Source of the DNA: Nodularia sp. NIES-3585
Lineage (GTDB): Bacteria; Cyanobacteriota; Cyanobacteriia; Cyanobacteriales; Nostocaceae
Direction: 5' to 3'
NCBI RefSeq assembly: GCF_002218065.1
Contig: NZ_BDUB01000001.1
Coordinates: 4,931,118-4,995,117 of the forward strand
Length of the DNA stretch: 64,000 bases
Both the position numbers and the translations under genes were made by a program. Below, in pieces: positions 20,409-64,000 of the stretch. Position 1 is the first letter of the stretch, and each line of letters starts with the position of its first letter. A model generated the notes under the pieces. The model saw only the letters and a program-made list of their open reading frames with translations. It had not been told where the DNA came from and did not search any database.

Positions 20409-20427
20409 CGCCGTATCTGGAGTGCTG

Positions 20428-24941: not shown

Positions 24942-27089
24942 TCAAAAAGCTTGGCGTGCCTCCAAATGGTCTAGAATATCCGAACGCTTCAGCCAAGCTG
25001 GACGCAACTGTTGATTAGCAAACATCTGCAACTGGTCACCAACATGGCGTGATCCCGGCTGAGTAGCATTGCCATAACTATTAAGTACCATAGCCCGCAC
25101 TGGCTGAGAAAATTCCACAGCTGCCACAAAGGAATCTCCACCAACTGACTTAAAGGTTCCATTTGACTGTGGTCTAAACCAGAGAGTCGGGAAAATGCCC
25201 AAAGGATCTGAGCCACCATTGGCGGGTAAATTTATATCACCATAATCTATCTGAAAAACCTCTCCCCATGCGACATCTAACTTGCCATAGGTTTCCTGTA
25301 CCCCAGATGCAGCAGCTTCTAATTTGGCAACTGCTGCTTGAGGATCGGCTAAACCATCAGGTGTGGTGCGCGGTTTGTGTTCACTCCAAGGTGTACTAAA
25401 TGCCTTCTCTAAATCAATTTGTTTTACCCAAGTAGCAAATAGGACTGCACCTTTACTGTTAGCATTTGCTTTCATATCCCAAGCACTTAACACATTAGCT
25501 GCATCTTTTGCTAACTCACTCCCTTGTTTCCGGGCTGCGAGAATTAAATCATCCAAGATGCGGTCTGCCAGTTCCATACGGGTTGAGTGCTTGTATGCCA
25601 CCATTTCATCAAAAGTAATTTTTTCATCCTCAAACAACATTCTGGCAGAACGCTGCGCCCGGAAATCCATAAACTTTGGTGCCATGTAAGGCGGGTATTT
25701 ATCTGCGTTGATAGCTGTGGGGAATGTGGTTGTCCAAGGTGGGTCATTAGCATTTTGTAACCAACCACTTTTGGGATCAACGATGCGCGGTAAGTCTTGA
25801 TAAGGATGATTTTTTGTCCATAGGGTATCAGAGGTATTACCTGGAATAATACCTTGCCAGTATTGAAAATCACCTTGTTTTCTGATGGGAACTTGACCGT
25901 TAAACAGGTGCATAATGTGTCCATCTTTGTCTGCATAGATGACCGTAAACATGGGCAATTGCAAACGTTTCAGTGCAGATTCAAACTGTGCAAGGTTTTT
26001 CGCCCGTGCCATATCCCACCACTGTGCAAGTACCTGCGGCTCGTCCAGACCAACTACCCGCAACGCTACAGCTTCATTACTTGTTTCGGATATGATCGGC
26101 CCGTGAACAGAATGTTTGACAACTAAGGGTTCTGTTTTAAAAGTGCCGTCTGGTTGTTTGACTTTTAATGACAGGTTTGTGGTTTCAAAAGATTTAACTT
26201 GGCCATCAAAGCGATAACCATTGTCAACTAACTCAAGTTTGTAAGCATCCCAGCCGTCGTGAGTGTTAACAGTATGAGTCCAGCCTAAATGATCATTGAA
26301 GGCGATCGCTAAAACTGGAATCCCCACAAGTGTTGCTCCATAAGCATTAAAACCTGGAGCCGTCATTTGCGCTTCATACCACAGGAATAAATCAGACCAA
26401 GGTAAGTGGGGATTTGCTAGCAGCATAGCATGACCATTTTCTGAGCGTGATGGTGCGATCGCCCAACCATTAGACCCGGCTTTTGATTCCTGCTGGCTAA
26501 TACCTGCAACTGATCCTGGGTTAACCACAAAAGTAAAATGCAAAACTCGATGTAAATGAGCCAGCACATCTTCGGCTTTAACTGGTAATACCACCGCTAC
26601 TTCATCATCAATCAATTCACTATGCTCCTGAGCATAAGCGTTGATTCCCGCAGCAAAAGCATCAAGATAATTACGAAAAGCTGGACTTTGTAATTTGTAC
26701 CAAGAACGCGCGCGTTCCGGGACTCCCATAGTCTGTACCCAACGGTCTGACTCTAAATATTCTTCTCCCCAGTATTGGGCAGCCTGTCCTCGTGCTTGAC
26801 CATAAAGACGCAAAAGCAGGTCACCGTGACTTTGCATTTGCGCCCAACCGAATGCTTGGAATGCACTTTGAGTATCTTTACCATAGATATGGGGAACGCC
26901 ATAAGTATCCCAAAGTATTTCAGTTGATCCTGCTGATATCACGCCACCATAGCTTGCCATAACTATAGCCAAGGTAAAACTAATAATCAGTGGTAAAAAT
27001 CGGAATTGTCTTCTTTTAAAAACGCTCAAGAAATCAGCCATATTCAAATTAGGAATTGATAATCTAGCTGCACACTTTAAAAACATCAC
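24942..27089 (-). CDS. Penicillin acylase-family N-terminal-nucleophile hydrolase
   Basis: 715 residues. Ntn hydrolases of this family cleave amide bonds (penicillins, acyl-homoserine lactones, N-acyl groups of siderophore precursors as PvdQ does). Seen: an N-terminal hydrophobic segment at about 30-48 (FLPLIISFTLAIVMAS) for export, the alpha chain (WDTYGVPHIYGKDTQSAFQAFGWAQMQ), and the autocleavage site AGSNGW with nucleophile Ser about 206, opening the beta chain. HTVNTHDGWDAYKL and PTLWFRPQSNG…GGDSFVAAVEFS follow. Start GTG 27089 or ATG 27086 (AAGG just upstream); ATG 27041 is also possible. Last gene of the NRPS locus, 24 bases after the thioesterase gene, so probably a maturation or deacylation step in the periplasm; it may instead act on quorum signals. 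Confidence 0.9.
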   Translation of the reverse strand: MMFLKCAARLSIPNLNMADFLSVFKRRQFRFLPLIISFTLAIVMASYGGVISAGSTEILWDTYGVPHIYGKDTQSAFQAFGWAQMQSHGDLLLRLYGQARGQAAQYWGEEYLESDRWVQTMGVPERARSWYKLQSPAFRNYLDAFAAGINAYAQEHSELIDDEVAVVLPVKAEDVLAHLHRVLHFTFVVNPGSVAGISQQESKAGSNGWAIAPSRSENGHAMLLANPHLPWSDLFLWYEAQMTAPGFNAYGATLVGIPVLAIAFNDHLGWTHTVNTHDGWDAYKLELVDNGYRFDGQVKSFETTNLSLKVKQPDGTFKTEPLVVKHSVHGPIISETSNEAVALRVVGLDEPQVLAQWWDMARAKNLAQFESALKRLQLPMFTVIYADKDGHIMHLFNGQVPIRKQGDFQYWQGIIPGNTSDTLWTKNHPYQDLPRIVDPKSGWLQNANDPPWTTTFPTAINADKYPPYMAPKFMDFRAQRSARMLFEDEKITFDEMVAYKHSTRMELADRILDDLILAARKQGSELAKDAANVLSAWDMKANANSKGAVLFATWVKQIDLEKAFSTPWSEHKPRTTPDGLADPQAAVAKLEAAASGVQETYGKLDVAWGEVFQIDYGDINLPANGGSDPLGIFPTLWFRPQSNGTFKSVGGDSFVAAVEFSQPVRAMVLNSYGNATQPGSRHVGDQLQMFANQQLRPAWLKRSDILDHLEARQAF

Positions 27090-27113
27090 CTTGTTAGCTC
27101 AAGGTTAAAGAGA

Positions 27114-27887
27114 TTAACCACTAATTTCACTGGTAATATAGTTCAGTTTTTGAGAGAGAGACTGTAGCAGAGATGATTGTGCTGAATGGAGAAAGAAATG
27201 GTCGCCCGGAAACATTTGTTGACAAAAAGTAGAATGTGTTTGCTCTTGCCAACCTTGGAGTTGATCAACACTGACTTTTGAATCTTGTAAACCACCAAAG
27301 GTAGTTATGGGAATATTCAAAGTGGGTTCAGGAGTATAAACATAAGTTTCCAGGACGGCAAAATCTGCCCGCAGCATAGGGATAAGTAACTCCATTAGTT
27401 CAGCATTTTCTAGTACTGCTTTAGGAGTACCATTCAGGCGGCCCAGTTCTTCTATAAATTCAGCTTCTGGAAGAGCATGAATAGGTGGATCTAAATCGGG
27501 AATTTGGGGAGCGCGACGACCAGATATAAATAAGTGAACTGGGCTGATGCCATATTCTCTGCGTAATAGACGGATAAGCTCAAAGCTCACCAGCGCACCC
27601 ATGCTGTGACCAAAAAAAGCGAACGGTTTTTTTAAATTTGGAAGCAATGCGGGAGCTAAACCCTTAATCAACGGTTCTAGGCGTGAAAAAGGAGCTAACT
27701 TTATTTGCATTCCCCTCCCAGGAAGTTCAATAGGAAAAATTTCCACAGTTGTAGGTAAACTTTTCAACCACGGGCGAAACATCAGAGAACTGCCCCCTGC
27801 GTAGGGAAAGCAAAATAAACGCAGGGAAGCATGAGGATTAGGATAGAGGCAAGTAACACTAGAGTGTAATACTTGTATGGGTTGCAT
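27114..27887 (-). CDS. Type II thioesterase
   Basis: 257-residue alpha/beta hydrolase that frees mis-primed or stalled acyl groups from carrier-protein arms of NRPS/PKS lines. Seen: LFCFPYAGGSSLMFRPW near the N-terminus, the nucleophile elbow GHSMGA with Ser95, a middle LNGTPKAVLEN lid segment, and the catalytic His in FPGDHFFLHS (about 229). Stand-alone and typical in size, unlike a chain-releasing type I domain; release here is by the reductase domain of the 29644-35475 gene. It lies 24 bases upstream of the acylase gene and 123 bases downstream of mbtH. Confidence 0.93.
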   Translation of the reverse strand: MQPIQVLHSSVTCLYPNPHASLRLFCFPYAGGSSLMFRPWLKSLPTTVEIFPIELPGRGMQIKLAPFSRLEPLIKGLAPALLPNLKKPFAFFGHSMGALVSFELIRLLRREYGISPVHLFISGRRAPQIPDLDPPIHALPEAEFIEELGRLNGTPKAVLENAELMELLIPMLRADFAVLETYVYTPEPTLNIPITTFGGLQDSKVSVDQLQGWQEQTHSTFCQQMFPGDHFFLHSAQSSLLQSLSQKLNYITSEISG

Positions 27888-28010
27888 AATCTAACTTTGC
27901 ACACTTCATAACTTTTCTCGGCATTCCTAAATTCGAGGATGAAATTTCAAGATTTATTCTTTTAATCTAGCCATAGCGAAATTTTGACAGTCAGGGGAGT
28001 GTCAATTGCG

Positions 28011-28238
28011 TTATGCCTGAGTAAGATCAGCTTCTGCCATTTTTTTTCGGAGGCTAAGTGGTCTCATGTCAGTCCAGACATCTTTTATATAGTCCAGACA
28101 CTCTTGCTTCAGTCCGCTTTTACCAACATCCTGCCAACCAAGAGGATTTTCACGCTCAGATGGCCAAATTGAATATTGTTCTTCATGATTAACTACAACT
28201 TTGTAAATTGTGGTGTCTTCTTTGTCTTCTTGATACAT
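28011..28238 (-). CDS. mbtH: MbtH-like NRPS accessory protein
   Basis: 75 residues. MbtH-like proteins bind A domains and are often needed for their folding and activity. Seen: the family core [20 protein letters not shown], and the C-terminal [10 protein letters not shown] with the two conserved tryptophans. Start ATG 28238. It lies between the aldo/keto reductase and thioesterase genes on the same strand; about 105-125-base gaps flank it. Which of the A domains in the locus depend on it cannot be told from sequence. Confidence 0.95.
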
Positions 28239-28346
28239 AATGCCTCTGGATATTTAACTAGTTAAGCTTTGTACCCCAATAATAACTGGGATCAATATAA
28301 TTATTGTTAATTATTGGTAATTTAACCCTGATATCACATTTTCGCG

Positions 28347-29534
28347 TTACTCCCACCGAAACAGTTTAGGTAAGTCAAAACTCCAACTCTGGGTATCTAC
28401 CTGCATACTATTCAATACTTGAATAATTGAATAAGTAAGTTCTTGGAATAGCTCTCTTTGAAGCGGTATAACAGTGCTAAGGGCTAAATTCTCTTCTATA
28501 TGTTGTATGGTCTTCATCCCCACTAGCGCCGTGAGGAGCATGGGAGCGCTTCGCGTGTACTGGAGTGCGCGCTGGCAGTCGGTGGAGAGTTCATGACCAA
28601 AGGACAAAGCAATAGTTTGCGGAATCTGTCCTACAACCTGCGCCTGAAAGATCGAATTGCTCGCTATGGGATGAATGCCTAAATGATAGGCAGCTTCCAA
28701 GACTGGAACTTCTTTACCTTCAATCTTTTGAGTTGGTGTTAGTAGTGCTTCTGGCATAGCCATATTCAATGGTAACTGGATAAACCGGAATCGGTCTTCC
28801 CTGTTTTTAGCCACCTCCCTAGCAATTGATTTCAGCCGTACCAAATCTAAATGATCGCGAGAAGTAGGAGATACACGGAAGCCTTCCCATGTTGCTAGAC
28901 CATAGGCGGCAATTTTTCCATTATTTACTGCATTTTCCATTACCTCGAAAGCTGCTCGTATTTGTTCGTAGAAGATATCTGGTGCTATTTCGGTCAGATT
29001 TCTTTCTGGATTATGGATGTAGTAAACGTCGATTGTTTCAAGTCCGAGGTTTGTCAGGCTGCGGTTGATCTGATCGAGAAGGTATTCTGGGTGTATGCAA
29101 TAACGCGTCCCGATGAGGTCTGTTATTTTGATACTAGAGTTGCTTTTCTCAACGTAGTTTTGATAAAACCAATCTGTTGCATTTGTCCCTGAATATGGAA
29201 GAATACCACCTTTCGTACAGATGATTAATTCATCCCTTGACGCTTCTCCCAGTTCCAGAAGACGCTGTATACCTTTTCCGACACTGCTTTCTCCTTGCTC
29301 GCAGCGATAGCTGATTGCGGAGTCAATTAGGTTGACCCCACGCCGCACTGATTCAATGACAGCTTGGGCGACAAGGGCATTAGTTTGTTCATCAGCATCA
29401 CCAATCAGGGAACCAATTCCAATAGAACTAGCAATAAATTCACCAGTTTCTCGGAAGAAAGTTGGCGAACAGTTTTTTTGTCTTTCCTTGTAACGCCGTG
29501 TTCCCTCTGGGGTAGCCTTGCCTGGAATTGCCAT
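28347..29534 (-). CDS. Aldo/keto reductase
   Basis: 395 residues from ATG 29534; an in-frame TTG at 29555 extends it by 7. NADPH-dependent TIM-barrel carbonyl reductase. The tetrad appears complete: Asp and Tyr in LIDSAISYR, Lys in IICTKGG, His in VYYIHNPE. It is longer than typical AKRs because of an N-terminal extension (ATPEGTRRYKERQKNC) and inserts such as ILPYSGTNATDWFYQNYVEK. It starts about 110 bases after the stop of the NRPS gene with a terminal reductase, so it may reduce the released peptide aldehyde to an alcohol or act on another carbonyl of the product (inference). Cofactor choice was not resolved. Confidence 0.9.
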   Translation of the reverse strand: MAIPGKATPEGTRRYKERQKNCSPTFFRETGEFIASSIGIGSLIGDADEQTNALVAQAVIESVRRGVNLIDSAISYRCEQGESSVGKGIQRLLELGEASRDELIICTKGGILPYSGTNATDWFYQNYVEKSNSSIKITDLIGTRYCIHPEYLLDQINRSLTNLGLETIDVYYIHNPERNLTEIAPDIFYEQIRAAFEVMENAVNNGKIAAYGLATWEGFRVSPTSRDHLDLVRLKSIAREVAKNREDRFRFIQLPLNMAMPEALLTPTQKIEGKEVPVLEAAYHLGIHPIASNSIFQAQVVGQIPQTIALSFGHELSTDCQRALQYTRSAPMLLTALVGMKTIQHIEENLALSTVIPLQRELFQELTYSIIQVLNSMQVDTQSWSFDLPKLFRWE

Positions 29535-29643
29535 TATTGTATCTCTCTCTCCCAAATTTGCGTTTTTATACTGGTCTAGCTAGCAGCAATCCTAATTAAT
29601 TTTTGAAATCTTATCTAGCAAAAAAACTGGGCATTTTCTGCAC

Positions 29644-32600
29644 TTAAATAGATAAATCTTTAAGCTGTGGAGCATTCATAAAGCCACTTTGAATAAGATA
29701 AGAAAAGTAAGTTATAAGTAACTCAGCATCAGCAGGTGGACAGATAATTGAGCTACCGGCAAGTCCATCTTTTGTATTTTGGCAATCTAATTTTAATGAT
29801 GGTGAATCCAAATCTTCTGCTAATTCTTCTTTCTCGTTACCGCCTTCACTGCTAGCGAAAAAAGGGATGAGTGGATACAATGGATTATCTAAGGAACACT
29901 CAGCAGCATTGAGTAGCTCTGTTTGCCATTGTTTGTTGGACATTAGCTGGAGTGGGTAACCAAACTCACGGATAAAATTAAACATTTGGAACGAGCGACT
30001 AGGGTTAGGATTAGACAAGTGAAATATTTGATTGAGTGATTTTTCCTGCTTTGATATATGAACGATCGCTTGGCTTACATAATCCACGGGAGTCATGTCT
30101 ACTATAGTGTCTACATCTGGCACAGATCCAAGTTGGATAAAGCCTTTAATCATTCTGTATAAACGGTCATTAGTGTTACAAACACCAGTTTTGCTATGCC
30201 CTGATATCCGTCCCAATCTGTAAATACTGACCGGAATTCCTCGTTTATATGCAGTAGCTACTAATTTTTCAGCCACCCATTTTGTTTGAGGATAGCCACC
30301 AAATGGTGCTTGATTATGATTAAATTTGTGAAGTTCCGAAATCTGCTTAACTTCACCATGACTTTCTGAGGTTAAAACGCTCAGAGTCGAAATGTAATGC
30401 ACAGGTTTGACTTTGATTTGACAGGCTAATCTCAAAATTTCCTGCGTTCCCAGAACATTAGCTGCCTTCAAAGTAGAGTAAGGATAAACAAGATTAATAG
30501 AAGCAGCATTGTGATAAATTACATCAATTTTACTCGCCATTACTTGAAATTGCTGATGGGAAAGACCGAGTAATGGCTGAGATAAATCACCTGCAACTGG
30601 GATGATGCGATTGCTTTGAGTTTCATCCCAAACTTTATATGATTCTAAATGACTTTGGAGCTTCTTCTTCCCTAATTCTACGTCAGCAGAACGTACTAGG
30701 CAATAAATATCAGCAGAAGTCTGTTGCAGAAGTTCATAAAGTAAAAAAGCTCCTACAAAACCTGTTGCTCCAGTTAAGAAAATATGAGATGGTTCTGCTG
30801 TATGTTCAAAAGATGTCTGTGGATAAATTGTCGGGTCTAGTACAGCTTCGGCGTTTAAAAATGCCAGATTACGATAAACTTCTACTGTCTCCTTGGGACT
30901 TAGCTTTGCTTCTGGTAAGTCCCAAGATTTGTCATCTGTGAAAGTTTCACAATCGGTAATTAGCTCACGTAGTGCGGCGATATAACCTTGTGCCAAACTT
31001 TCTATAGTCGCTTGGTGATGAATTGCTTTACTATATGTCCAATTTAATTGCAATTGACCATCAGCAACAATGCCGTTGATATCTAGTAAATAACTGCGGT
31101 TTCCTCTGAGGCTGCGGCCTGGTTCAGTAGACTCTGAGGCTGGTGCAAACATAGATGATTCAAATATTTGGTCAGTTTGACCCAAGTAATTAAATCTGAC
31201 ATCGGCTTTGAGTTGATGCAGTCGTGACTCACCCTTGAGATAGCGCAGCACGCCATAGCCAATACCTCGATTGGGAATCCTGCGTAGCTGCTCTTTTACT
31301 GCTTGCACTGCTTCCCCAACAGCATTAGTTTTACTGACATCTAAGACTACAGGGAAAATGGTAGTAAACCAGCCTACAGTACGCAACAAGTCTACATCTT
31401 CAAAGATTTCTTCTCGCCCATGTCCTTCTAGGTCAACTAGCAACCTTGCGTTTGTCCAGGGTTTAAAGGCTTGTACCAGCGCTGTGAGTAACACATCATT
31501 AATCTGGGTTTGATAAATTTTCGGGACTTTCTGGAGCAAAACTTGGGTTTCTTCCTGACTGAGGGCTACCGATATAGTGTGTGCCTGAGCTACTGTGTTG
31601 TCGCCTTCAGGAAAATCTACCGGAATTTGGGCAATTTGTTCAGGAGCAATGCCTTGGGCGATCGCAGCGATCGCTAACCAGTATTCTAGTTCTTGTTCTA
31701 ATGCTGTAGACTGGGCGTATTCCTGCAATTTTTCAGCCCAATGTTTGAAGGAAGTAGTTTTGGGTGGTAGTTTTATTGACTTACCTTGACTAATTTGTTG
31801 GTAAGCAGTTTGCAGGTCAGACAACAAAATTCGCCACGAAACTCCATCAACGGCTAAGTGGTGGATAATTACTAGCAGTCGGCTGGGCTGAGTATCTCCC
31901 AAGTTAAAAAAAGCCACCTGCATCAGCGAACCTGAGCTTAAGTTGAGGCTGGTTTGTAGTTTATTCGCTGTAGCTGATATTGCCGCCGCTTGTTCTGTTT
32001 CTAACACCCCTGACAAATCTATTACCGTAAATGGCACTACTTCATTCAGGTTAGCGTTAACCTGCTGCCAAGTTGATTCTTGGCGAACAAAACTTAGGCG
32101 GAGCGCATCGTGATATGCCAACAAATGCTTAACTACCTGTTCTAAAAGTGCAGGGTCGAGAGATTGGTGAACTTCTAGCAGGATTGATTGGTTCCAGTGG
32201 TGAGAATCGAGAAGATTTTGTTCAAAGAACCAGTGCTGAATCGGTGTAAGTGGTACTTCACCTGTAACTAGCCCCTGTTCAGCTGGAATAATTCGGTTTT
32301 TGACAGCTACTGCGGCTAACTCGGCAATTGTCTGGTGTTCAAACAGATGCTTGGGAGTAATCTGTAAACCAGCTTGGTTAGCTTTGGCAATAATCTGCAT
32401 ACTGAGGATGGAATCTCCACCCAACTCAAAGAAATTATCGTGAATTCCTACCTGTTCAAGTCTGAGAATTTTTGCCCAAATCTGTGCCAACACTTTTTCA
32501 ACAGCAGTGCTGGGAGCTACAAAAGTTCCTTCTAAATCCGAGCGAGTCATGTCGGGTGCTGGCAGTGCCTGACGGTCTAACTTACCGTTGGGTAATAACG

Positions 32601-35475: not shown

Positions 35476-35489
35476 TTTTCACCCTCTGA

Positions 35490-36536: not shown

Positions 36537-36538
36537 TC

Positions 36539-42037: not shown

Positions 42038-42088
42038 ATATTTGCCAAATTTCAAAGTTCAATTATCTATTTTCTCTTATTGAAATAC

Positions 42089-43357: not shown

Positions 43358-43370
43358 ATTAGCTACCTAC

Positions 43371-44774: not shown

Positions 44775-44850
44775 GAAAAGAACTCTCTGGATGACCGTTG
44801 TATTAAAAAAGAATTTTTACTCTGTTATTGGTAGAGGTAATTCATGACAG

Positions 44851-49425: not shown

Positions 49426-49429
49426 TTAA

Positions 49430-55400: not shown

Positions 55401-58400
55401 CCTGGTATCATGTAATTTGGCAATTGCGATTCTAATAATCCTCGTAGTTCTTTAATTGCCAAGGTTTGTTCTGTTTGAGGCACTACATAAGCTACTAAAC
55501 TCTGAGAATCGGCTTCGGAAGAATAAACTGTAACTACAGTTTCTCGAACTGCTGGGTGTTGAATAATTACAGCCTCAATTTCGCCCAGTTCAATGCGGAA
55601 ACCACGGAGTTTAACTTGGTTGTCAATTCGACCCAAATACTCAATGTCGCCATTAGGAAGATAACGGGCTAAGTCTCCAGTTAGATAAAGCCGTGCTGAT
55701 GGTTTGTCGCTAAAAGGATGAGGTATAAATTTCTCTGCTGTGATGTCGGAGCGGTGGAAATAACCCCTTGCTAGTCCATCGCCAGCGATACACAATTGAC
55801 CTGGGACACCGACTGGAAGCAACTGATTATATTGGTCAAGGATATACAGTTCTGTATTGGCAATGGGTTGACTAATTTTTACCGTCCCGTCAACTGTTTT
55901 GACTTCAGATGCGGCTGACCAAATAGTAGTTTCTGTAGGGCCATACATATTCCACACAGAAGCACATCGCTCAAGTAATTGATTGGCTAAATGTGCAGCT
56001 AAAGCTTCACCACCACAGAGAATTTTTAACTGCTGATTACCACTCCAACCAGCGGCTAATAGTAACTGCCATGTTGCGGGTGTGGCTTGCATGACTGTAG
56101 TTTGAGAATTAGTCAATTTTGCTGACAACTGGATGCCATCTGCGGCTACTTCCCGACTGACAATCACTAAACGCGCACCAACTATAATTGGTAAAAATAA
56201 TTCTAATGCGGCAATATCAAAGGAATAGGTAGTAACTGCTAGTAAGGTATCTTCTTTAGTGATTCCTGGGCTTTGCTTCATTGCAAATAAGAAGTTGTTT
56301 AGAGCAATGTGAGGAATTTGTACGCCTTTGGGTTTACCTGTGGAACCAGAGGTGTAGATGATATATGCTAAGTTTTCAGCACTTAGCTGGGAAGATAAAT
56401 TTTTCTGGCTTTGTTGCGAAATTAACTGCCAATTAGTATCTAAACAGATTGTTTGTGCTTGGTGTTGGGGTATTGTTGCCAACAGTGAGGCTTGAGTCAG
56501 CAATACTGACGCTTGGGTATCTTCTAGGATAAATGCTAATCGTTCTTGGGGATAGTTAGGATCTAATGGGATGTATGCACCACCTGCTTTGAGGATGGCT
56601 AATAATCCAATGAGCATATCAAGCGATCGCTCTACACAAATTCCTACTAATAACTCTGGTTTTACTCCTACCTTTTGTAAATAATGCGCCAATTGATTGG
56701 CTCTGATATTCAGTTCCAGATAGGTTAGCTGTGCATCTTCAAACACTACAGCGACGGCATCAGGTGTGCGTTCTACCTGCGCTTCAAATAATTCATGAAT
56801 GCCTTGCTCTTGAGGATATTCAACTGCTGTATTATTCCACTCCAGTAATTGCTGATGTAACTCAGTTTCTGTGAGCAGTGGTAATTGTGACAAACGCTGC
56901 TGTGGATTAGCCACAATTCCAGAAAGCAATGTTTGCAAATGTCCCGCCATTTTGTGGATAGAAGTTTTTGTAAATAAATTTGTATTGTATTCTAAACTGC
57001 CAACTATCCCCAACTCTGTTTCACTCATGTTTAGAGTTAAATCAAACTTAGCACTATCACTATTGCTTTCTAAGGGGAGTAAATTCAAACCAGGCAATTC
57101 CAAGGCAGATAGCGGTGCATTTTGCAGCACAAACATCACTTGAAATAATGGTGTATGGCTTAAATCTCGCTGTGGTTGCAATTTCTCAACTAACAATTCA
57201 AAGGGCAAATCCTGATGTGCATAAGCTCCTAATGCTACTTCCCGAACTCGTTTAAGTAGCTCTTTAAAACTGGGATTTCCTGTCAACTTGGTTCGTAGTA
57301 CCAAAGTGTTGACAAAACATCCAATTAACCCTTCTATTTCGGTTCGGTTACGATTAGCTATGGGTGAACCAACGACAATATCTTCACTACCTGTGTAACG
57401 CCATAGTAAAGTTTGGAAAGCTGCCAACAGGGTCATAAATAAAGTACTTCCCTGCTGCTGACTCAATTTGTTTAGGGATGCAGATAATTCTTTTGATAAC
57501 TCAAATGAGTAAGTTGCACCTGGGAATGTTTGAATAGCTGGTCTGGGGTAGTCTGTAGGTAACTCCAATACTTTGGGCGCATCTTCTAATTGCGATCGCC
57601 AATAAGATATTTGGGATTGTAGGACTTCTCCTTGTAGCCATTGTCTTTGCCAAGCGGTGAAGTCTACATACTGTATTGGCAGTTCCGCTAAGGGTATTTG
57701 CGTAGCGTCTTGGCCGGAAATGGGTTGTTCTTTTGCAAAGGCTTCATAAAGTGCTGCAACTTCTTTAATTAACACTCCCATTGACCAACCATCAGAGACG
57801 ATGTGGTGCATTGTCAGTAGAAGGAGATGTTCTTGCTCCCCAAGACGTAATAATTTTACTCTCAGGAGATGGTCGCTGCTGATGTCAAAACTTTGTTGTG
57901 CTTCTTGTCCAACCTGTTGTTTGACTTCATCTTCTTGGTGATTGAAAGAAAGTTCACTAATATCTAATATTGGCAACATTAGGGGCTTTACTTCCGATAT
58001 GACTGCAATCCCTTTTCCTTCCATTGTGGGAAAGTTGGTTCGTAATGTTTCGTGACGGCGGAGAATTTCGTTGAAGCTTTGTTGTAATGCGTTAAAATTT
58101 AATTCTCCTTCTAGGCGAACAGCAGCAGGAATGTTGTAGAAGGGGCTATCTGGCTCTAATTGAGCTAGAAACCATAATCTTTGTTGAGCAAATGATAGAG
58201 GTAATTGTGGCGATCGCCCAATCCGCTCAATATTCGTTGTCTCAAGTCCGAAGCCTGTCTTAATGGCATTTTCAATTTCTGTAGCCAATCCAGCAATTGT
58301 TGGTTTTTCAAATAAGCAACGTAAAGGAAGTTCTACTGAAAACACTTGGCGGATTTGGGATATAACGCGAGTTGCAATTAACGAATGCCCGCCCAATTCA

Positions 58401-61393
58401 AAGAAATTCTGATCAGTACCTACTTTGTCAATCCCAATTACTTCCGCCCAAATACCCGCTAATAAATTCTCAGTGGGTGTGGAAGGACTAGAGGAGGATA
58501 GTAAACTCTGTGTTAATTCGGGTGCAGGAAGCGCTTGACGGTCAACTTTGCCATTGGGCGTGAGTGGTAGTGCCTCCAAGATGACAAAAGCTGTTGGTAC
58601 CATGTAATTTGGTAACCTTGATACCAAAAAGCCACTTAGTTCAGGAATTGTGAGTGTTTGCTGTTGTTGAGGTACTACATAAGCCACTAAACGCTGAGAA
58701 TCTATGGAATCTTCCCGGACTGTAACCACAGTTTCTCGGATTGTCGGGTGCTGACTCAGCACGGCTTCAATCTCGCCCAGTTCAATCCGGAAACCACGTA
58801 CTTTTACTTGGTGGTCAATACGACCAAGGTATTCTATTTCGCCATTGGGGAGATAACGCGCCAAGTCTCCAGTTTTATAAAGACGTGCAGCTTTTGTGCT
58901 AAAAGGATTGGGAATAAATTTTTCGGCAGTCAAATCGGGACGGTGAAAATAACCTTGTGCCAGGCCATCCCCAGCGATACACACTTGGCCGGGTACACCA
59001 ACGGGAACTAACTGATCATATGGGTCGAGAATATAAATTTGCGTGTTGGTAATTGGCTGACTAATGGTGACATTACCGTTAATTGTTTTTATTAAGCTAG
59101 CAGCTGACCAAATTGTGGTTTCTGTAGGGCCATACATATTCCATAAGCAAGCACATCGCTCAAGTAACTGATTTGCTAAATATGCAGGTAAAGCTTCACC
59201 ACCACAGAGAATTTTTAATTGCTGGTTACCACTCCAACCAGCGGCTAATAGTAACTGCCATGTTGCGGGTGTGGCTTGCATGAATGTAGCTTGGAAGTTA
59301 GTTAATTTTGCTGACAACTGGATGCCATCTGCGGCTACTTCCCGGCTGACAATCACTAAACGCGCACCAACGATAATTGGTAAAAATAATTCTAATGCGG
59401 CTATATCAAAGGAATAAGTAGTAACTGCGAGTAAGATATCTTCTGTATTGATTCCTGGGCTTTGCTTCATTGCAAATAAGAAGTTGTTTAGAGCAATGTG
59501 AGGAATTTGTACGCCTTTGGGTTTACCTGTGGAACCAGAGGTGTAGATGATATATGCTAAGTTTTCAGCACTTAGCTGGGAAGATAAATTTTTCTGGCTT
59601 TGTGGCGAAATTAACTGCCAATTAGTATCTAAACAGATTGTTTGTGCTTGGTGTTGGGGTATTGTTGCCAACAGTGAGGCTTGAGTCAGCAATACTGACG
59701 CTTGGGTATCTTCTAGGATAAATGCTAATCGTTCTTGGGGATAATGAGGATCTAGTGGGATGTATGCACCACCTGCTTTGAGGATGGCTAATAGTCCAAT
59801 GAGCATATCAAGCGATCGCTCTACACAAATTCCTACTAATAACTCTGGTTTTACTCCTACCTTTTGTAAATAATGCGCCAATTGATTGGCTCTGATATTC
59901 AGTTCCAGATAGGTTAGCTGTGCATCTTCAAACACTACAGCGACGGCATCAGGTGTGCGTTCTACCTGCGCTTCAAATAATTCATGAATGCATTGCTGTT
60001 GAGGATATTCAACTTCTGTATTATTCCACTCCACAAGCAACTGATGTCGTTCAGTTTCCGTTAAGAGCGACAATTGACAAAGGCGCTGTTGTGGATTATT
60101 AACCATACCCTCTAGCAACGTCTGCAAATGTCCTAGCATTCGGGTAACGGTATCGGAGCGATCGCGATCATCGTAACTAATCTTCAGTAATAACTCATTA
60201 CCTGGAATCACAGTTAGAGTTACAGGATAGTTAGTTCTTTCAAAGCCATGAAAATCCTCTATCTCAAAATTTATATCCTTCTCTAAGACTGAAGGATCTA
60301 CAGGATAATTCTCAAAAGCTAATATATTATCGAACAGAGCGAAACCTTTAGGCACTTCACTCCATCCCTGGACTTTTACTAAAGGACTATATTCGTATTG
60401 ACGTGCTTCAACTAGTTGAGTCTGGATTTTTTGCAGCCAAGGTAAAAGAAATTCCTGGGGCGAGACTTTTACTCTAATGGGTAGTGTGTTGATAAACAAC
60501 CCTACCATAGACTCGGCATGAGGTAAAGTAGGAGGACGACCAGAAGCTACTGCCCCGAAAACTATGTCTTCGTGACCACTGTAGCAACTTAATAGCAACA
60601 CCCAAGCTCCTTGTACCAGAATATTTAATGTTAGCTGGTGCCGTTGTGCTATGGATTCTAACGCTGTGGTTGTTACTGCTGAAAACTTAATTTCTTGTTC
60701 GGCATAGTCATCTTCGGGAGTCAGTGATTTTCTAGCGCCTGGATCTGCCCACAACCGTGTGGGAGTCGTAAAACCTTTGAGCGTCTCTCGCCAGTAAGTC
60801 TCGGCCACAGATAGGTTTTGTTGCTGAAGCCAGACAATATAATCTCGATAAGGGCGAATGGGTTCTAAGAAGACATCTTCACCCTTGCTCAAAGCTGTGT
60901 AACAAGCAAAAACTTCCTTAAAAATTATGGCACCAGACCAGCCATCTAGTAACAGATGATGATGACTCCACGTAAAGTTATAGGATGTATCCGAAAGTTG
61001 AACCAGTGTTAGACGCATCAATGGTGGTTGCGTAAGTTCAAAACCACTAGAGCGATCGCTTTCCAAGAAAACTCTTAACTTTTGTTGCTGTTCATCTGGA
61101 GAGAGATGCTGCCAATTATACTCCTGCCACGCTAGAGTTACCTGTCGATGCACAACTTGTACTGGTTCTTTTAAACCTTCCCAAACAAAGCAGGTTCGGA
61201 GAATTGAATGGCGCTTTACAATATGCTGCCATGACTGATGGAATGCTCTAATGTTGAGAGATCCGTGGAGATTCCAGCTAAATTGTTCAAAGTAAGTGCC
61301 AGATTTGGGGGCTGCAAGACTATGGTAGAGAATGCCCTGCTGCATCGGCGAGAGGGGATAAAAATCTTCAATGTTTTTGTTTTTTACGCCCAT
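49430..61393 (-). CDS. NRPS, (C-A(Gly)-PCP)x3-C-TauD
   Basis: 3987 residues. Domains: C1 about 1-440 (DCL-type start YPLSPMQQGILYHS, HHLLLDG); A1 about 450-960; PCP1 about 999; C2 about 1060-1490 (HHIVSDG); A2 about 1510-2010; PCP2 about 2063; C3 about 2128-2550 (HHIAADA, final Gly replaced); A3 about 2570-3080; PCP3 about 3119; C4 about 3184-3620 (HHIVSDR); TauD about 3646-3980 with HNE (about 3759) and a distal His in AAHGR. All three A domains give D-I-L-Q-L-G-M-I-W-K (from YSFDIAALEL, FMQATP or VMQATP, ILCGGE, WNMYGPTETTIW), the cyanobacterial glycine code. No A-PCP follows C4; its partner is the next gene's Asp module. GGAG lies 9 bases before ATG 61393, and the previous stop TGA is 1 base upstream. 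Confidence 0.95.
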   Translation of the reverse strand: MGVKNKNIEDFYPLSPMQQGILYHSLAAPKSGTYFEQFSWNLHGSLNIRAFHQSWQHIVKRHSILRTCFVWEGLKEPVQVVHRQVTLAWQEYNWQHLSPDEQQQKLRVFLESDRSSGFELTQPPLMRLTLVQLSDTSYNFTWSHHHLLLDGWSGAIIFKEVFACYTALSKGEDVFLEPIRPYRDYIVWLQQQNLSVAETYWRETLKGFTTPTRLWADPGARKSLTPEDDYAEQEIKFSAVTTTALESIAQRHQLTLNILVQGAWVLLLSCYSGHEDIVFGAVASGRPPTLPHAESMVGLFINTLPIRVKVSPQEFLLPWLQKIQTQLVEARQYEYSPLVKVQGWSEVPKGFALFDNILAFENYPVDPSVLEKDINFEIEDFHGFERTNYPVTLTVIPGNELLLKISYDDRDRSDTVTRMLGHLQTLLEGMVNNPQQRLCQLSLLTETERHQLLVEWNNTEVEYPQQQCIHELFEAQVERTPDAVAVVFEDAQLTYLELNIRANQLAHYLQKVGVKPELLVGICVERSLDMLIGLLAILKAGGAYIPLDPHYPQERLAFILEDTQASVLLTQASLLATIPQHQAQTICLDTNWQLISPQSQKNLSSQLSAENLAYIIYTSGSTGKPKGVQIPHIALNNFLFAMKQSPGINTEDILLAVTTYSFDIAALELFLPIIVGARLVIVSREVAADGIQLSAKLTNFQATFMQATPATWQLLLAAGWSGNQQLKILCGGEALPAYLANQLLERCACLWNMYGPTETTIWSAASLIKTINGNVTISQPITNTQIYILDPYDQLVPVGVPGQVCIAGDGLAQGYFHRPDLTAEKFIPNPFSTKAARLYKTGDLARYLPNGEIEYLGRIDHQVKVRGFRIELGEIEAVLSQHPTIRETVVTVREDSIDSQRLVAYVVPQQQQTLTIPELSGFLVSRLPNYMVPTAFVILEALPLTPNGKVDRQALPAPELTQSLLSSSSPSTPTENLLAGIWAEVIGIDKVGTDQNFFELGGHSLIATRVISQIRQVFSVELPLRCLFEKPTIAGLATEIENAIKTGFGLETTNIERIGRSPQLPLSFAQQRLWFLAQLEPDSPFYNIPAAVRLEGELNFNALQQSFNEILRRHETLRTNFPTMEGKGIAVISEVKPLMLPILDISELSFNHQEDEVKQQVGQEAQQSFDISSDHLLRVKLLRLGEQEHLLLLTMHHIVSDGWSMGVLIKEVAALYEAFAKEQPISGQDATQIPLAELPIQYVDFTAWQRQWLQGEVLQSQISYWRSQLEDAPKVLELPTDYPRPAIQTFPGATYSFELSKELSASLNKLSQQQGSTLFMTLLAAFQTLLWRYTGSEDIVVGSPIANRNRTEIEGLIGCFVNTLVLRTKLTGNPSFKELLKRVREVALGAYAHQDLPFELLVEKLQPQRDLSHTPLFQVMFVLQNAPLSALELPGLNLLPLESNSDSAKFDLTLNMSETELGIVGSLEYNTNLFTKTSIHKMAGHLQTLLSGIVANPQQRLSQLPLLTETELHQQLLEWNNTAVEYPQEQGIHELFEAQVERTPDAVAVVFEDAQLTYLELNIRANQLAHYLQKVGVKPELLVGICVERSLDMLIGLLAILKAGGAYIPLDPNYPQERLAFILEDTQASVLLTQASLLATIPQHQAQTICLDTNWQLISQQSQKNLSSQLSAENLAYIIYTSGSTGKPKGVQIPHIALNNFLFAMKQSPGITKEDTLLAVTTYSFDIAALELFLPIIVGARLVIVSREVAADGIQLSAKLTNSQTTVMQATPATWQLLLAAGWSGNQQLKILCGGEALAAHLANQLLERCASVWNMYGPTETTIWSAASEVKTVDGTVKISQPIANTELYILDQYNQLLPVGVPGQLCIAGDGLARGYFHRSDITAEKFIPHPFSDKPSARLYLTGDLARYLPNGDIEYLGRIDNQVKLRGFRIELGEIEAVIIQHPAVRETVVTVYSSEADSQSLVAYVVPQTEQTLAIKELRGLLESQLPNYMIPGAFVILEALPLTPNGKVNRKALPAPQFTQILPSSQSPSTPIEILLAGIWTELLGINHVGIGDNFFELGGHSLIATRVISQIRQVFSVELPLRCLFEKPTIAGLAKEIENGIQVGLGVERINIERIARLPHSPLSFAQQRLWFLAQLEPDSPFYNIFAAVRLQGELNIQALQQTFNEIVSRHKALRTKFKTVEGQAVTIISEATPLKLPQLDLSQLPANQQEYQVKQQTLKAAQQPFDLTTDVLLRVKLLRLGQQEHIALLTMHHIAADAWSVGVLVQELATLYPAFCNGQLSPLIELPIQYVDFAAWQRQWLQGEILQSQLAYWLKHLENAPAILELPTDYTRPAIQTFQGATYSFNISPELSTALNKLSQQQGITLFMTLFAAFQTLLWHYTGQDDIVVGSPIANRNQGQIEELIGLFVNTLVLRTNLAGNPRFEELLQQVREVALGAYAHQDLPFELLVEELQPERSLSDTPLFQVMFVLQNAPMSALDLPGLNLSLLETISDTAKFDLTLYLTETNSGLVGNLEYNTDLFKESSIHRMVENLQTLLAGIVANPQQRLSELPFLSDWERHQLLVEWNNTELEYPQQQCIHELFQTQVEKTPDAVAIVFENEQLTYCELNQRANQLAHYLQKLGVKPEVLVGICVQRSLDMVIGLLAILKAGGAYIPLDPHYPQERLAFILENAQVSVLLTQTSLLAEIPQHQAQTICLDTDWQLISPQIPENLCSQLTSENLAYIIYTSGSTGKPKGVQIPHIALNNFLFSMQQSPGITKEDTLLAVTTYSFDIAALELFLPIIVGARLVIVSREVAADGIQLSAKLTNSQATVMQATPATWQLLLAAGWSGNQQLKILCGGEALPTHLANQLLERCASVWNMYGPTETTIWSAASEVKTVDGTVKISQPIANTELYILDQYNQLVPVGVTGELHIGGDGLARGYFLRPDITAEKFIPHPYPKHIGERLYKTGDLARYLANGEIEYIGRIDYQVKLRGFRIELGEIEAVISQYPAVLETIVTLRKDTVDSQSLVAYVVPEKEQTVTIKELRGFLESKLPSYMIPGAFVTLEALPLTPNGKVDRKALPKPNLTLGSSLPQVTPNTQIEILLAGIWAEILGLDKVGIHDNFFELGGHSLIATRVMSRIRQVFQVELPLRDLFAKPTIAGLATEIETANKAGLGTQTTNIERIERWNTPQLPLSFAQQRLWFLAQLEPNSPFYNIPAAVRLQGELNFNALRQSFNEIVRRHEVLRTNFQTVAGQAVVVISQAKPLILPTIDISKLPLDQQEVEIKQQTTQELQHPFNISSDYLLRVKLLRLDEQEHILLLTMHHIVSDRWSIGVLVQEVSALYTAFCAGKPASLPELPIQYVDFAMWQRQWLQGEVLQSQLAYWKKQLGSNLPVLQLPTIRPRSEVKTNSGKALSFVISSQNSKALQALSRQEGVTLFMTLLAGFNVLLQRYTNQDDIVVGTDVANRNRAEIEPLIGFFVNLLVLRTHLGDNPSFRELLKQVRSCLLGAYAHQDLPFDELVKALQPERNLNNTSPLFQVLFVLQNTPMPPLELPGLTLHLLEVESKIAKFDLALFLTETEEGILGEWQYNADLFDEKIISCMTEHFKTLLNSIVAQPDTKINNLEMLTDSESKQQAMQKKERKAFKREKFMSVSPKAINLLPEKLIKIDYFQPGQILPLVIQPNDDEINLVNWVQNNREFIEKELLKHGAILFRGFDVDSESKFQSFAQAIYPDLFGEYGDLPRKVKGSKVYGSTPYPSDKAILFHNESSHSHQFPLKIWFCCLQASEQGGETPIVDCRQAYQKLNPKLRDRLVEKQLLYVRHYTGGLDVSWQEFFQTDDKLAVENYCNQAKIDFTWYNNDSLVTRQIRPALAVHPKTGDKVFFNQIQLHHISYLDAEVRKSLLSLYKDEELPRNVYYGDGTPIEESVITEINEIYQQCTTSFSWQKRDVLMLDNMLAAHGRYPYLGQRKIIVAMGEMVQSENVLYVKKKE
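52653..52827 (-). repeat. A3/A2 identical block (copy in A3)
   Basis: 175 bases identical to 55821-55995 in the A2 domain of the same gene, covering the region after the specificity pocket. Surrounding DNA up to about 53100 is also nearly identical to A2. Confidence 0.9.
55821..55995 (-). repeat. A3/A2 identical block (copy in A2)
   Basis: Partner of 52653-52827. From here up to about 56270, A2 follows A3 almost base for base; above that it follows A1. Confidence 0.9.
56270..56800 (-). repeat. A1/A2 near-identical block (copy in A2)
   Basis: Nearly identical to 59450-59985 in A1 (isolated mismatches only), covering the N-terminal half of the A domain from LFEAQVERTPDAVAV to the KQSPGI segment. 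With the A3-like lower half it makes A2 a mosaic. Confidence 0.88.
59450..59985 (-). repeat. A1/A2 near-identical block (copy in A1)
   Basis: Partner of 56270-56800; see that entry. Confidence 0.88.
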
Positions 61394-61394
61394 G

Positions 61395-64000
61395 TCAAAT
61401 ATCTCCTATAGCTGCTGTAATGGCATCGAGATCGGTTTGATCCCATTGGCTTTGGTTAAATTCGGAAAAATCGGAGGGGGTAAAACCTCCTGCATCAGAA
61501 GATTGGCAATGAGTAATCAGCGATCGCAATGCCGCGATAAATATTTGAGCCAGAGTTTCAACCGTGGTTTGTCGGTATAACTCACTGCTATAAGTCCAGT
61601 TAATTTGCAGACTTCCCTGAGAAATACTGCTGTTAACTTCCAACAAATGAGTTCTTTGACTTTGCAAACTACAACTGGAACCACTTGGTTCGGCAGTAAA
61701 GGCAAATAAAGACGATGATGGAAAAACTTGGTCAAACTGACCTAAATAATTAAACACTACTTCCGCTTTTGGCAAACGACTGAATCGTTCCTTATCATCA
61801 CTGAGATAACGCAACACTCCATAACCAATACCTCGATTGGGAATTGATCTAAGTTGTTCCTTAATGGATTTAAGGGCTGTTCCGGGCGAATCGCAAGTGT
61901 TTTTCAAACTCAGGTGTACCGGGAACATAGTTGTAAACCAGCCCACAGTCCTGGATAAATCTACATTTTCAAACAACTCTTCTCGACCATGCCCTTCTAA
62001 ATCAATTAGTAATGAAGTTTCTCCAGTCCATTGGTGAAATGTTTGCACCAGTGCAGTTAACAAGACATCATTAATTTGTGTGTGATAAACGAATGGCAGC
62101 TGTTGTAATAAAACTTGGGTTTCTTGTTCAGTTAACGATACAGTCACATTACAAGCTGATGCTTCTACATTTGCTTTTACATTATTTCCATAGCTAAAAT
62201 CTAGCGGTAGAGGCTGAACAGAGTGTTGTTCGATTTTCAACCAGTATTCTAGCTCTGAACGCAAAGCAGGTGATTGTGCATATTCTTGTAGATAACTAGA
62301 CCACTGCGGGAAAGAAGTTGTTTTCGCTGGCAACTGTAAAGCTTGGTTTTGACAACTTTGTTGGTAAGCTGTCTGAAAATCTTCAATTAAAATTCGCCAA
62401 GAAACTCCATCAACTACTAAGTGATGAATAATCCACAGTAAACGACTTGGTTGATTTGCACCCAGATCAAAATAAACAACTCGGTATAATAGACCTTGTG
62501 TCAAGTTTAAGCTGGCTTGTAGATCAACTGCTATTGCTGACATCTGGGCTACTTGTTTCTCCTGGGGGAGTGTAGACAAATCTATATAGGCGAATGGCAC
62601 TCGCTCATCGGGACTGATTATCACTGCCTCAAAGCCAGATTCTGTTTTTGTAAATCGCGATCGCAGAACATCATGATGCTGTTGCAAACACTGTAATACT
62701 TGTTCCACAAGCACCGGATTCAGCATTTGCCGTACCCCTAATAACAGAGCCTGATTGTAATGATGGTAGTTGACAAAATTTTCCTCTTCCTCAAAGAACC
62801 AGCGCTGAATGGGTGTTAAGAGGAATGCCCCAGTCACCAAACCTTGTTCAGATGAAATAGAAACTTTATTACTAGCTACCGTTGCTAGTTGGGCGATTGT
62901 TTGGTGTTGGAATAATTGTTTAGATGTGAGATTCAGTCCTGCTTGGTTAGCTTTAAATATAACTTGAAGACTGAGGATAGAATCCCCACCTAATTCAAAA
63001 AAATTGTCGTTTATACCTATTTTTTCTAATCCAATTACTTCTGCCCAGATATCTGCCAACTGCTTTTCAAAAGCTGTCTGAGGTGCAACATAAGTTTTTT
63101 CTAACTCCGAACGCATCTGTTCCGGTGCTGGCAATGCCCGACGATCTAATTTACCGTTAGGGGTTACCGGCAGTGCCTCTAGCGTCACAAAAGCAATAGG
63201 TATCATGTAATCAGGAAGCTTTGACTCTAGAAATTCCCGTAATTCTAGCGTTAGTTTACGCTCTTGATTTTTTTGCAGAGGAGCATTAGCGTAATTGCGC
63301 CAAGGTTGAATGCTCACAGTTTCACTCTTAAAACAAGGAATATTTAGATTAGGTGTTTGTCCATCTGGATTTTGCCGCACAAACACTGCATCATAATAAC
63401 CATCAACACCAGAACCAGACCACCTAATATTGACAGCATAAGGTAATGTATGACTTAAAGCCCACACATCTTCTGGATCTACACCATCAGTTAGACCTAA
63501 ACACATAGCTTCCTGCAAGGTGGTAACTGTGTGGTGTTGCTCATCTGTATTGATTAGCTCTAAGAGTTTAGCTTCTGCCACCAATCGAGCATTAGGGATA
63601 TGAGTAATTCCTAAGACTTCGGGATTTTTTTCGAGTAATAAGTTATGTATTTTATTAATACTTAATCCCTGTTTTCGCCAGTCCATCCATACAACATTTG
63701 TTGGCTGATTAACATCAGTTTTCACACCAATGATCACATCGTATTTAAATTTTGTTAATTCGTTATGGTGAGAACCTCCTTTTAATTGAATTTGTACATG
63801 GCTGATGTTTGGTAAAAACTGCTGCAAAGCTGTAAAAAATTCAGGGTCAATAACTAACTCATTGTCTGCTATTACATTCTTTTGTATACGCTGCTCAAGT
63901 TCTGTTTTGCTGAGTTCACCAGATGCTTGATGCAGTTGCACCCAAGCATGAAATGTCTCTATTAGTGGCAAACTGCGAACACCTCCCACAAAAATGTTTC
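61395..64000 (-). CDS. NRPS, …A with embedded methyltransferase-PCP-E (N-terminus outside window)
   Basis: About 868 visible residues; the frame stays open to the window edge, and the GTG at 63989 lies inside a conserved motif (NIFVGGVRSLPLIETFH), so it is not the start. Visible: the last part of a SAM-dependent methyltransferase inserted in an A domain (motif normally GDVRSLPL; FLPNISHVQIQLKGGSHHNELTKF… style), the A10 motif NGKLDRRALP (about 285), PCP FFELGGDSIL (about 333), and an E domain about 395-840 with intact HHLVVDG. Such A-MT modules N-methylate the amino acid, and E inverts it, so a D-N-methyl residue should precede the three glycines. Substrate cannot be read because the pocket lies outside. 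The stop overlaps the next gene's start region. Confidence 0.93.
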   Translation of the reverse strand, partial: NIFVGGVRSLPLIETFHAWVQLHQASGELSKTELEQRIQKNVIADNELVIDPEFFTALQQFLPNISHVQIQLKGGSHHNELTKFKYDVIIGVKTDVNQPTNVVWMDWRKQGLSINKIHNLLLEKNPEVLGITHIPNARLVAEAKLLELINTDEQHHTVTTLQEAMCLGLTDGVDPEDVWALSHTLPYAVNIRWSGSGVDGYYDAVFVRQNPDGQTPNLNIPCFKSETVSIQPWRNYANAPLQKNQERKLTLELREFLESKLPDYMIPIAFVTLEALPVTPNGKLDRRALPAPEQMRSELEKTYVAPQTAFEKQLADIWAEVIGLEKIGINDNFFELGGDSILSLQVIFKANQAGLNLTSKQLFQHQTIAQLATVASNKVSISSEQGLVTGAFLLTPIQRWFFEEEENFVNYHHYNQALLLGVRQMLNPVLVEQVLQCLQQHHDVLRSRFTKTESGFEAVIISPDERVPFAYIDLSTLPQEKQVAQMSAIAVDLQASLNLTQGLLYRVVYFDLGANQPSRLLWIIHHLVVDGVSWRILIEDFQTAYQQSCQNQALQLPAKTTSFPQWSSYLQEYAQSPALRSELEYWLKIEQHSVQPLPLDFSYGNNVKANVEASACNVTVSLTEQETQVLLQQLPFVYHTQINDVLLTALVQTFHQWTGETSLLIDLEGHGREELFENVDLSRTVGWFTTMFPVHLSLKNTCDSPGTALKSIKEQLRSIPNRGIGYGVLRYLSDDKERFSRLPKAEVVFNYLGQFDQVFPSSSLFAFTAEPSGSSCSLQSQRTHLLEVNSSISQGSLQINWTYSSELYRQTTVETLAQIFIAALRSLITHCQSSDAGGFTPSDFSEFNQSQWDQTDLDAITAAIGDI

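Follow-up and report, generated by a model that had tools for sequence, protein, structure and literature searches.

A probable cyanochelin-type beta-hydroxyaspartate siderophore cluster with a predicted Gly3-bOHAsp-Dab-bOHAsp core in Nodularia sp. NIES-3585

Cupriachelin, a photoreactive siderophore of a proteobacterium, contains beta-hydroxyaspartate (bOHAsp) and is encoded with one fused and one free hydroxylase, two features that recur in the cyanobacterial locus described here. The nearest characterised system is cyanochelin B, an acylated thiazoline-Phe-Gly-bOHAsp-D-Ser-bOHAsp-ethanolamine (PMC12628792), and two classes of cyanochelin hydroxylase, CyanoBH_Asp1 and 2, have been described (PMC12971057); papers are cited here and below for excerpts of their text. 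The locus lies in a 64,000-nucleotide stretch of Nodularia sp. NIES-3585 (the window; bases 4931118-4995117 of contig C1, in a 5.77 Mb genome of 4 contigs). Judged from its sequence, it is a cyanochelin-type bOHAsp siderophore cluster with a probability of about 0.82, and the cluster is real and probably active. The kind is already known and widespread; what is new, among the clusters compared, is the predicted core of this member, Gly3-bOHAsp-Dab-bOHAsp (Dab, diaminobutyrate) with a reduced end, which occurs in 0/11 other clusters read (G099 over 23 kb only, others possibly cut). A preliminary description of the window had proposed a new bOHAsp metallophore; the metallophore is supported by the sequence, and the class is the known cyanochelin type rather than a new one.

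The assignment is made because a positive control returns the cyanochelin B peptide and because both hydroxylases share the two clades of that system. Run on the cyanochelin B cluster (Leptolyngbya sp. NIES-3755, plasmid AP017310), the same pipeline gave Phe-Gly-[TauD]-Asp-Ser(E)-[TauD]-Asp(E)-Gly-TD, in agreement with the peptide part of the published nuclear magnetic resonance structure; the control covers this part only and not the thiazoline, because the models contain no Cy or Ox domain. Both Asp codes of AP017310 are DLTKIGHVGK, the same as that of the last module in the window. As first described, there are two TauD hydroxylases, one fused at the end of the protein encoded at 49430-61393 (Pfam 3.6e-42) and one free at 35490-36536 (2.1e-48); in transcription order, the fused domain precedes the first Asp module and the free one the second. 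Both align with the solved relatives 1y0z and 9yut and retain the iron ligands (His-x-Glu...His) and the late Arg, and these four residues are kept in 25/25 hydroxylase domains from the window and the 11 other clusters. In a tree of these 25 domains, the window's fused hydroxylase falls within a clade (100/100) that also holds the fused enzyme of cyanochelin B, and its free hydroxylase within a clade (100/97) that holds the free enzyme of that cluster. The fused/free label needs three changes on this tree and is therefore an imperfect marker. The nearest other fused hydroxylase among 217 genomes of the family reaches 75% at best, and a query with the free enzyme found matches in 27/386 genomes sampled across the phylum, its own genome counted. 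A third TauD protein of the genome (313 aa, beside a Rieske/PaO oxygenase ~27 kb left of the window) was considered as part of the cluster and rejected.

The minus-strand run of nonribosomal peptide synthetase (NRPS) and associated genes extends from 24942 to 87065, 23 kb past the window, which therefore holds only the 3' part; ~30,000 following bases were analysed too, and extended coordinates continue the window numbering beyond 64000. In transcription order the proteins read FAAL-ACP-C-A-T; KS-AT-KR-ACP; KS-AT-MT-KR-ACP; 3-hydroxyacyl-CoA dehydrogenase, small ACP, acyl-CoA dehydrogenase, and FkbH protein; C-A-N-MT-T-E; C-A-T-C-A-T-C-A-T-C-TauD; I-A-T-E; stand-alone C; Dab transaminase; partial C-A-T-E-C; free TauD; I-A-T-E-TD; aldo-keto reductase; type II thioesterase; and Ntn acylase. 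Divergent from this run, on the plus strand from 87956, are a TonB receptor, a siderophore-type binding protein, a sucrase/ferredoxin-like protein, and an ABC exporter, reaching 94565. G numbers label the genomes of relatives, G386 being Nostoc foliaceum FACHB-393 and G167 Nostoc sp. UHCC 0926. The features are as follows.

24942..27089, minus strand: Ntn acylase, PF01804, cephalosporin acylase/PvdQ-like; predicted nucleophile Ser206; N-terminal hydrophobic segment, a signal peptide by eye
27114..27887, minus strand: type II thioesterase (PF00975)
28347..29555, minus strand: aldo-keto reductase, candidate for a second reduction step; a 68% homologue adjoins the TD gene of G099
29644..35475, minus strand: NRPS, interface-like I-A(Asp, DLTKIGHVGK)-T-E-TD (thioester reductase)
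35490..36536, minus strand: free TauD, predicted aspartate beta-hydroxylase, same clade as the free hydroxylase of cyanochelin B
36539..42055, minus strand: NRPS, partial C-A(predicted Dab, DIWEMTADDK)-T-E-C (after-E type)
42089..43357, minus strand: diaminobutyrate-2-oxoglutarate transaminase (TIGR02407), predicted Dab supply
43371..44774, minus strand: stand-alone condensation domain, HHLILDG
44851..49425, minus strand: NRPS, interface-like I-A(Asp, DLTKVGHVGK)-T-E
49430..61393, minus strand: NRPS, C-A(Gly)-T-C-A(Gly)-T-C-A(Gly)-T-C-TauD (fused hydroxylase)
61395..64000 in the window, continuing to extended 67415, minus strand: NRPS, C-A(DVYYLGGIC-)-N-MT-T-E
extended 67458-68600, minus strand: FkbH-domain protein (TIGR01686, 278.9 against a cut-off of 146.65 bits)
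extended 68524-69705, minus strand: acyl-CoA dehydrogenase
extended 69747-69998, minus strand: stand-alone carrier protein, 83 aa
extended 70047-70910, minus strand: 3-hydroxyacyl-CoA dehydrogenase
extended 70931-76780, minus strand: polyketide synthase (PKS), KS-AT-MT-KR-ACP
extended 76777-81669, minus strand: PKS, KS-AT-KR-ACP
extended 81717-87065, minus strand: FAAL-ACP-C-A(DTEDIGSIVK)-T
extended 87956-90694, plus strand: TonB receptor with AMIN domain
extended 90736-91701, plus strand: periplasmic binding protein (PF01497); nearest NCBIfam models of Fe-dicitrate/enterobactin type, below their cut-offs
extended 91810-92805, plus strand: sucrase/ferredoxin-like protein (SucFer)
extended 92802-94565, plus strand: ABC exporter, MsbA-like, below cut-off

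Every pocket code read from the window alone is borne out. Independent alignments reproduced the Gly code DILQLGMIWK three times in 49430-61393 and the two Asp codes, DLTKVGHVGK in 44851-49425 and DLTKIGHVGK in 29644-35475. DIWEMTADDK is present in 36539-42055, with its final DD read directly behind YGPTE; an alignment to a hidden Markov model that placed QF at 330/331 (a code ending in TAQF) was discarded as a slip, the direct reading being TADD. The neighbouring Dab-forming aminotransferase passes TIGR02407 ectoine_ectB (570.3 against a cut-off of 552.2 bits), and a DIWEM-type A domain adjoins a homologous transaminase in 5 relatives (G167, G332, G078, G276, and G091). The terminal thioester reductase scores 367 against 213.35 bits with TIGR01746 and has the GATGF and YPQTK motifs. 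The sequence thus supports the residue order Gly3-bOHAsp-Dab-bOHAsp, reductive release, and an N-methylated, epimerised residue preceding Gly3. Two further codes are DVYYLGGIC- for this N-methylated residue, with its tenth position masked by the N-MT insertion, and DTEDIGSIVK for the first residue, beyond the window. The motif HHxxxDxxSW is found in four E domains, and a condensation-like, interface-like domain without HHxxxDG stands before the A domain of each Asp module, an arrangement that Reitz et al. reportedly used to define the interface-domain hydroxylase system. The C_L/C_D/E/I models were trained on domains of this same cluster with labels that we assigned, so the C, E, and I labels in the window are partly circular; independent support comes from the HHxxxD reading, the NIES-3755 control, and TIGR01720 in the three E-bearing proteins searched (of four). 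In the literature, DILQLGMIWK is listed for Gly (PMC12283262) and DLTKVGHVGK is the code for the OH-Asp residue of tistrellabactin (PMC10391617).

Among side observations on these modules, EctB-like Dab transaminase homologues (E up to 1e-100, mostly 76-82% identical) occur in 60/217 family genomes, own genome included, and several transaminase-bearing genomes (G396, G416, G433, and others) have no hydroxylase match; Dab products may be common in the group. In G380, G078, and G332 the last module reads I-A(DSALIAEVWK)-T-TD, and the free TauD that accompanies it in all three belongs to a separate clade (100/100), so that these clusters may place another hydroxylated residue at the chain end.

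The stereochemistry of the two bOHAsp units can be predicted from a rule quoted in PMC12628792, by which the beta-carbon becomes S with a fused enzyme and R with a free one. The first would be (2R,3S) D-erythro, since a fused hydroxylase and an E domain occur together there, and the second (2R,3R) D-threo, whereas both units of cyanochelin B are threo; cyanochelin B provides no check on the D-erythro prediction because its first Asp module is without E. L-erythro bOHAsp is known in tistrellabactin (PMC10391617) and, from the title and opening of the abstract, in the potashchelins.

Upstream of these modules the line departs from the preliminary description, which had the product start at N-Me-D-X; this residue is not the start, being preceded by an acyl group that FAAL loads, by one amino acid, and by two PKS modules. 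The locus is a FAAL-initiated hybrid PKS/NRPS line in a cyanobacterium, as is characteristic of the cyanochelin type. The methyltransferase of the second PKS module is nearest in the PDB to CurJ (1.7e-45), which we take to be a C-methyltransferase; with CurJ leading its nine PDB matches, an O-methyl reading was set aside. FkbH, an acyl-CoA dehydrogenase, an ACP, and a 3-hydroxyacyl-CoA dehydrogenase are grouped here, and FkbH-I-J-K is presumably the hydroxymalonyl/methoxymalonyl-ACP cassette; no separate O-methyltransferase (FkbG, for the methoxy form) is among the genes of extended 67458-70910. The AT motif, obtained from 15/17 PKS proteins, is GYSIGE only in the second module and in the UHCC 0926 module that likewise stands beside an FkbH cassette, the other 13 being GHSxGE. 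These features are consistent with an alpha-hydroxy, alpha-methyl polyketide unit as in cyanochelin B, for which a flavin oxygenase and a C-methyltransferase are drawn, and in which the third iron ligand pair is proposed to be that hydroxyl and the thiazoline nitrogen (PMC12628792).

In the pathway that we propose, FAAL would load a fatty acid onto the ACP and the acyl group would be condensed with one amino acid (DTEDIGSIVK, perhaps basic), before two PKS modules extend the chain, the second with an FkbH-pathway unit of hydroxymalonyl type and a C-methyl group. N-Me-D-X, Gly, Gly, Gly, D-bOHAsp, D-Dab, and D-bOHAsp would then be added, with the fused TauD serving the first Asp, the free TauD the second, and the interface-like domains acting as docking sites. 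The TD would release the chain reductively as an aldehyde, or as a primary alcohol as in cyanochelin B. The two bOHAsp units could furnish four iron ligands, with the alpha-hydroxy polyketide unit the likeliest third pair; the ABC exporter would move the product out, the acylase may strip the amide-bound fatty acid in the periplasm, and the TonB receptor would import the ferric complex, which by analogy may be photolysed by UV light.

An orthologous cluster whose product is known to differ would have spoken against the preliminary structure, but none was found; cyanochelin B comes from a sister cluster with other residues. The two clusters have in common the FAAL start, a PKS with C-methyltransferase, TD release, interface-like domains, two bOHAsp modules with one fused and one free TauD of the same clades, a D-residue between the bOHAsp units, and a divergent start of TonB receptor and binding protein genes, followed there by an MFS gene and then a SucFer homologue. 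Cyanochelin B, in contrast, has FAAL-ACP-KS, thiazoline, Phe, one Gly, Ser between the bOHAsp units, a first bOHAsp module without E, and a last module whose Gly becomes ethanolamine, whereas the present cluster has FAAL-ACP-C-A-T, the FkbH-type cassette, an N-Me residue, Gly3, Dab, a TD directly on bOHAsp, and an acylase at its 3' end. That the two make the same product was rejected, the residue set thiazoline-Phe-Gly-bOHAsp-Ser-bOHAsp-ethanolamine being absent here. Siderophore transport genes adjoin the core, with the divergent receptor and binding protein beside the FAAL gene, and a SucFer homologue is kept in the transport cassettes of both clusters (361 bits), where it is perhaps a ferric-siderophore reductase partner. 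It is improbable that the product is instead a bOHAsp lipopeptide with another role, for example an antibiotic, lying beside iron-transport genes by chance. Membrane-active lipopeptides commonly contain Dab and begin with a lipid, and hydroxylase profiles have also caught non-metallophores such as turnercyclamycin (PMC12971057). However, the two hydroxylases are positioned as in cyanochelin B and fall in its clades, the TonB receptor, binding protein, and SucFer homologue keep the same divergent position as in NIES-3755, and a TD is present with no cyclising thioesterase in its place.

The assembly line is, by sequence comparison, a mosaic. When each window domain was matched against the 11 other clusters ("nearest" meaning nearest of those 11), N. 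foliaceum was nearest, at 75-90%, for the last NRPS (I, A, E, and TD), the free TauD, and the A and E domains of the first Asp module; its cluster has Ser for Dab, Ser-Thr for Gly3, and no FkbH cassette in the stretch read. Nostoc sp. UHCC 0926 (plasmid NZ_CP117772.1; contig C7) was nearest, at 62-82%, for the FkbH cassette (78-82%), two of the three Gly A domains, the three C domains that follow Gly modules, the fused TauD (76%), the first interface domain, the stand-alone C (62%), the Dab transaminase (82%), and the Dab A domain (69%); its cluster differs in residue order and has extra modules and no TD in the stretch read. For the remaining domains other genomes are nearest: G276 for the third Gly A (77%) and the FAAL (84%), G062 for the C that opens 49430-61393 (60%), G197 for the C that closes 36539-42055 (55%), and G091 for the N-methylating A and MT (58 and 64%); the partial C of 36539-42055 has a best match of only 55%. 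The two hydroxylases thus have different nearest lineages. The hydroxylase tree pairs the fused one with UHCC 0926 and the free one with N. foliaceum (99/95 and 100/99), and the approximately unbiased (AU) test rejects the opposite pairings, fused with N. foliaceum (p 3.3e-06) and free with UHCC 0926 (p 7e-56), with p values that are optimistic because the pairs were picked after the tree had been viewed. The three Gly A domains share 81.8-88.0% protein identity (82.8-88.1% in DNA over A-T) and only 74-77% with the nearest outside one; this closeness fits tandem duplication, and the Gly modules look tandem-duplicated.

Whether the lipid stays on the product is a sub-question of the cyanochelin-type assignment, and the answers are not exclusive of it. 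Pyoverdine is a lipid-started siderophore matured by PvdQ, an N-terminal nucleophile (Ntn) acylase; the lipid start and the Ntn acylase are shared here, where the support consists of co-occurrence and protein family. Over almost its whole length the acylase (715 aa) can be aligned with cephalosporin acylases (6.8e-197), whereas its match to PvdQ is weaker (3e-60); Ser206 corresponds to the first residue of the beta chains. Its score of 247.7 bits falls short of the 950-bit cut-off of the PvdQ equivalog model NF051460. In a survey of 16 genomes or records, the acylase was present in the own genome and in 10/10 relatives (split into two parts in G332 and G197). It was absent from 4/4 same-genus genomes without the cluster, which also have no hydroxylase or transaminase match, and from the AP017310 plasmid, the part of that genome searched, on which the domain fed by FAAL is a KS instead of a C. 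Across the 217 family genomes (fused hydroxylase query with E up to 1e-60, acylase with E up to 1e-100), 124 had the hydroxylase and 145 the acylase: 117 both, 7 the hydroxylase only, 28 the acylase only, and 65 neither. The 124 are not a count of complete clusters, because hydroxylase matches include both types and stray copies. The acylase is thus found in 117/124 genomes with a hydroxylase match and in 28/93 without (Fisher 8e-25, ignoring relatedness and genome size), the pooled odds ratio within genera is ~9 on those genomes whose genus is shown, and 35 same-contig distances between the two genes, hand-picked from tables rather than counted over all genomes, span 8-52 kb.

This co-occurrence suggests deacylation after export. 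It is somewhat less than evenly probable that the same siderophore line retains its lipid and that the acylase is an unrelated scavenging or signal-degrading enzyme, as its closer kinship to cephalosporin acylases than to PvdQ, the 28 genomes that carry it alone, and its position on a different contig from the cluster in 3/10 relatives (G386, G276, and G078) would have it; the association with the hydroxylase across the family, and the absence of the acylase from the cluster-free genomes of the genus and from the AP017310 plasmid, argue for deacylation instead. An Ntn hydrolase has been taken as a sign of a removed acyl group in the case of tistrellabactin (PMC10391617). Literature linking acylases, cyanobacteria, and siderophores yielded nothing on this point at the level of listings, and no mention of acylase or PvdQ was found in the excerpted FAAL review (PMC11837247). 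A far more speculative and very unlikely elaboration is that the acylated product is an inactive pro-siderophore with a C-terminal bOHAsp-aldehyde, from which the acylase would, once the product is exported, free the N-terminal amine to react with the aldehyde and form a macrocyclic imine, giving a deacylation-triggered cyclic siderophore; if true, ring closure and iron binding would be switched on outside the cytoplasm.

Besides the solitary and distant acylases and the restricted base of the acylase statistics, several results weigh against the cyanochelin-type assignment or its details. Dab, which we take to be the residue of DIWEMTADDK, is predicted from related codes and the adjacent transaminase, and this code and two related spellings had no match in the literature searched. 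DVYYLGGIC- and DTEDIGSIVK had none in the main texts searched, and both residues are therefore left without assignment; DLTKVGHVGK is listed for Asn too in the literature excerpted. A search for a Fur box in the divergent promoter (extended 87066-87955) gave best sites matched by 34/300 and 19/300 shuffles, no better than chance, and the receptor and binding protein share only 56% and 55% identity with their nearest counterparts, in N. foliaceum. The exporter beside them is 90% identical to that of N. foliaceum, which would fit a shift of uptake specificity along with the peptide core. In the second KR the NADPH motif is degenerate (GGLEDIG) and the Asn is replaced, and this damage makes the oxygen state at the second PKS unit uncertain. 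Together with KTNISH for KTNIGH in the second KS and the partial C domain that opens 36539-42055, it might indicate a silent or decaying cluster that makes no product. We regard such decay as quite improbable: the domain sets of 24942-94565 sit in 21 long open frames with no internal stop; the hydroxylase ligands and the E, TD, and A motifs are kept; and a similar partial C precedes the Dab A domain of G167 (55%). A dead second KS was likewise rejected, its Cys and both His being retained (ETHGTGT, KTNISH).

Elsewhere in the window, a CRISPR array (5766-6677) gives 13 matches to Rfam CRISPR-DR5, and the same contig carries Cas10/Csm1-like and Cas3-like genes ~36-43 kb past the end of the window. 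Genes at 6855-8627, 8637-11261, 15106-18873, and 20383-22806 encode a ShlB-type two-partner secretion (TPS) transporter and a TPS-domain exoprotein flanked by two CHAT-domain proteins, one with TPR repeats and the other with CHASE2; an IS605 OrfB/TnpB-like gene (19178-20368) stands between the TPS gene and the CHASE2 gene.

As a probable member of the cyanochelin type, the cluster extends, by a predictable structure, the class of light-cleaved siderophores, through which phototrophic communities may share iron, and it would represent a natural case of assembly-line recombination. It also raises the idea that most hydroxylase-bearing members of this cyanobacterial family may mature their siderophore by deacylation outside the cytoplasm.

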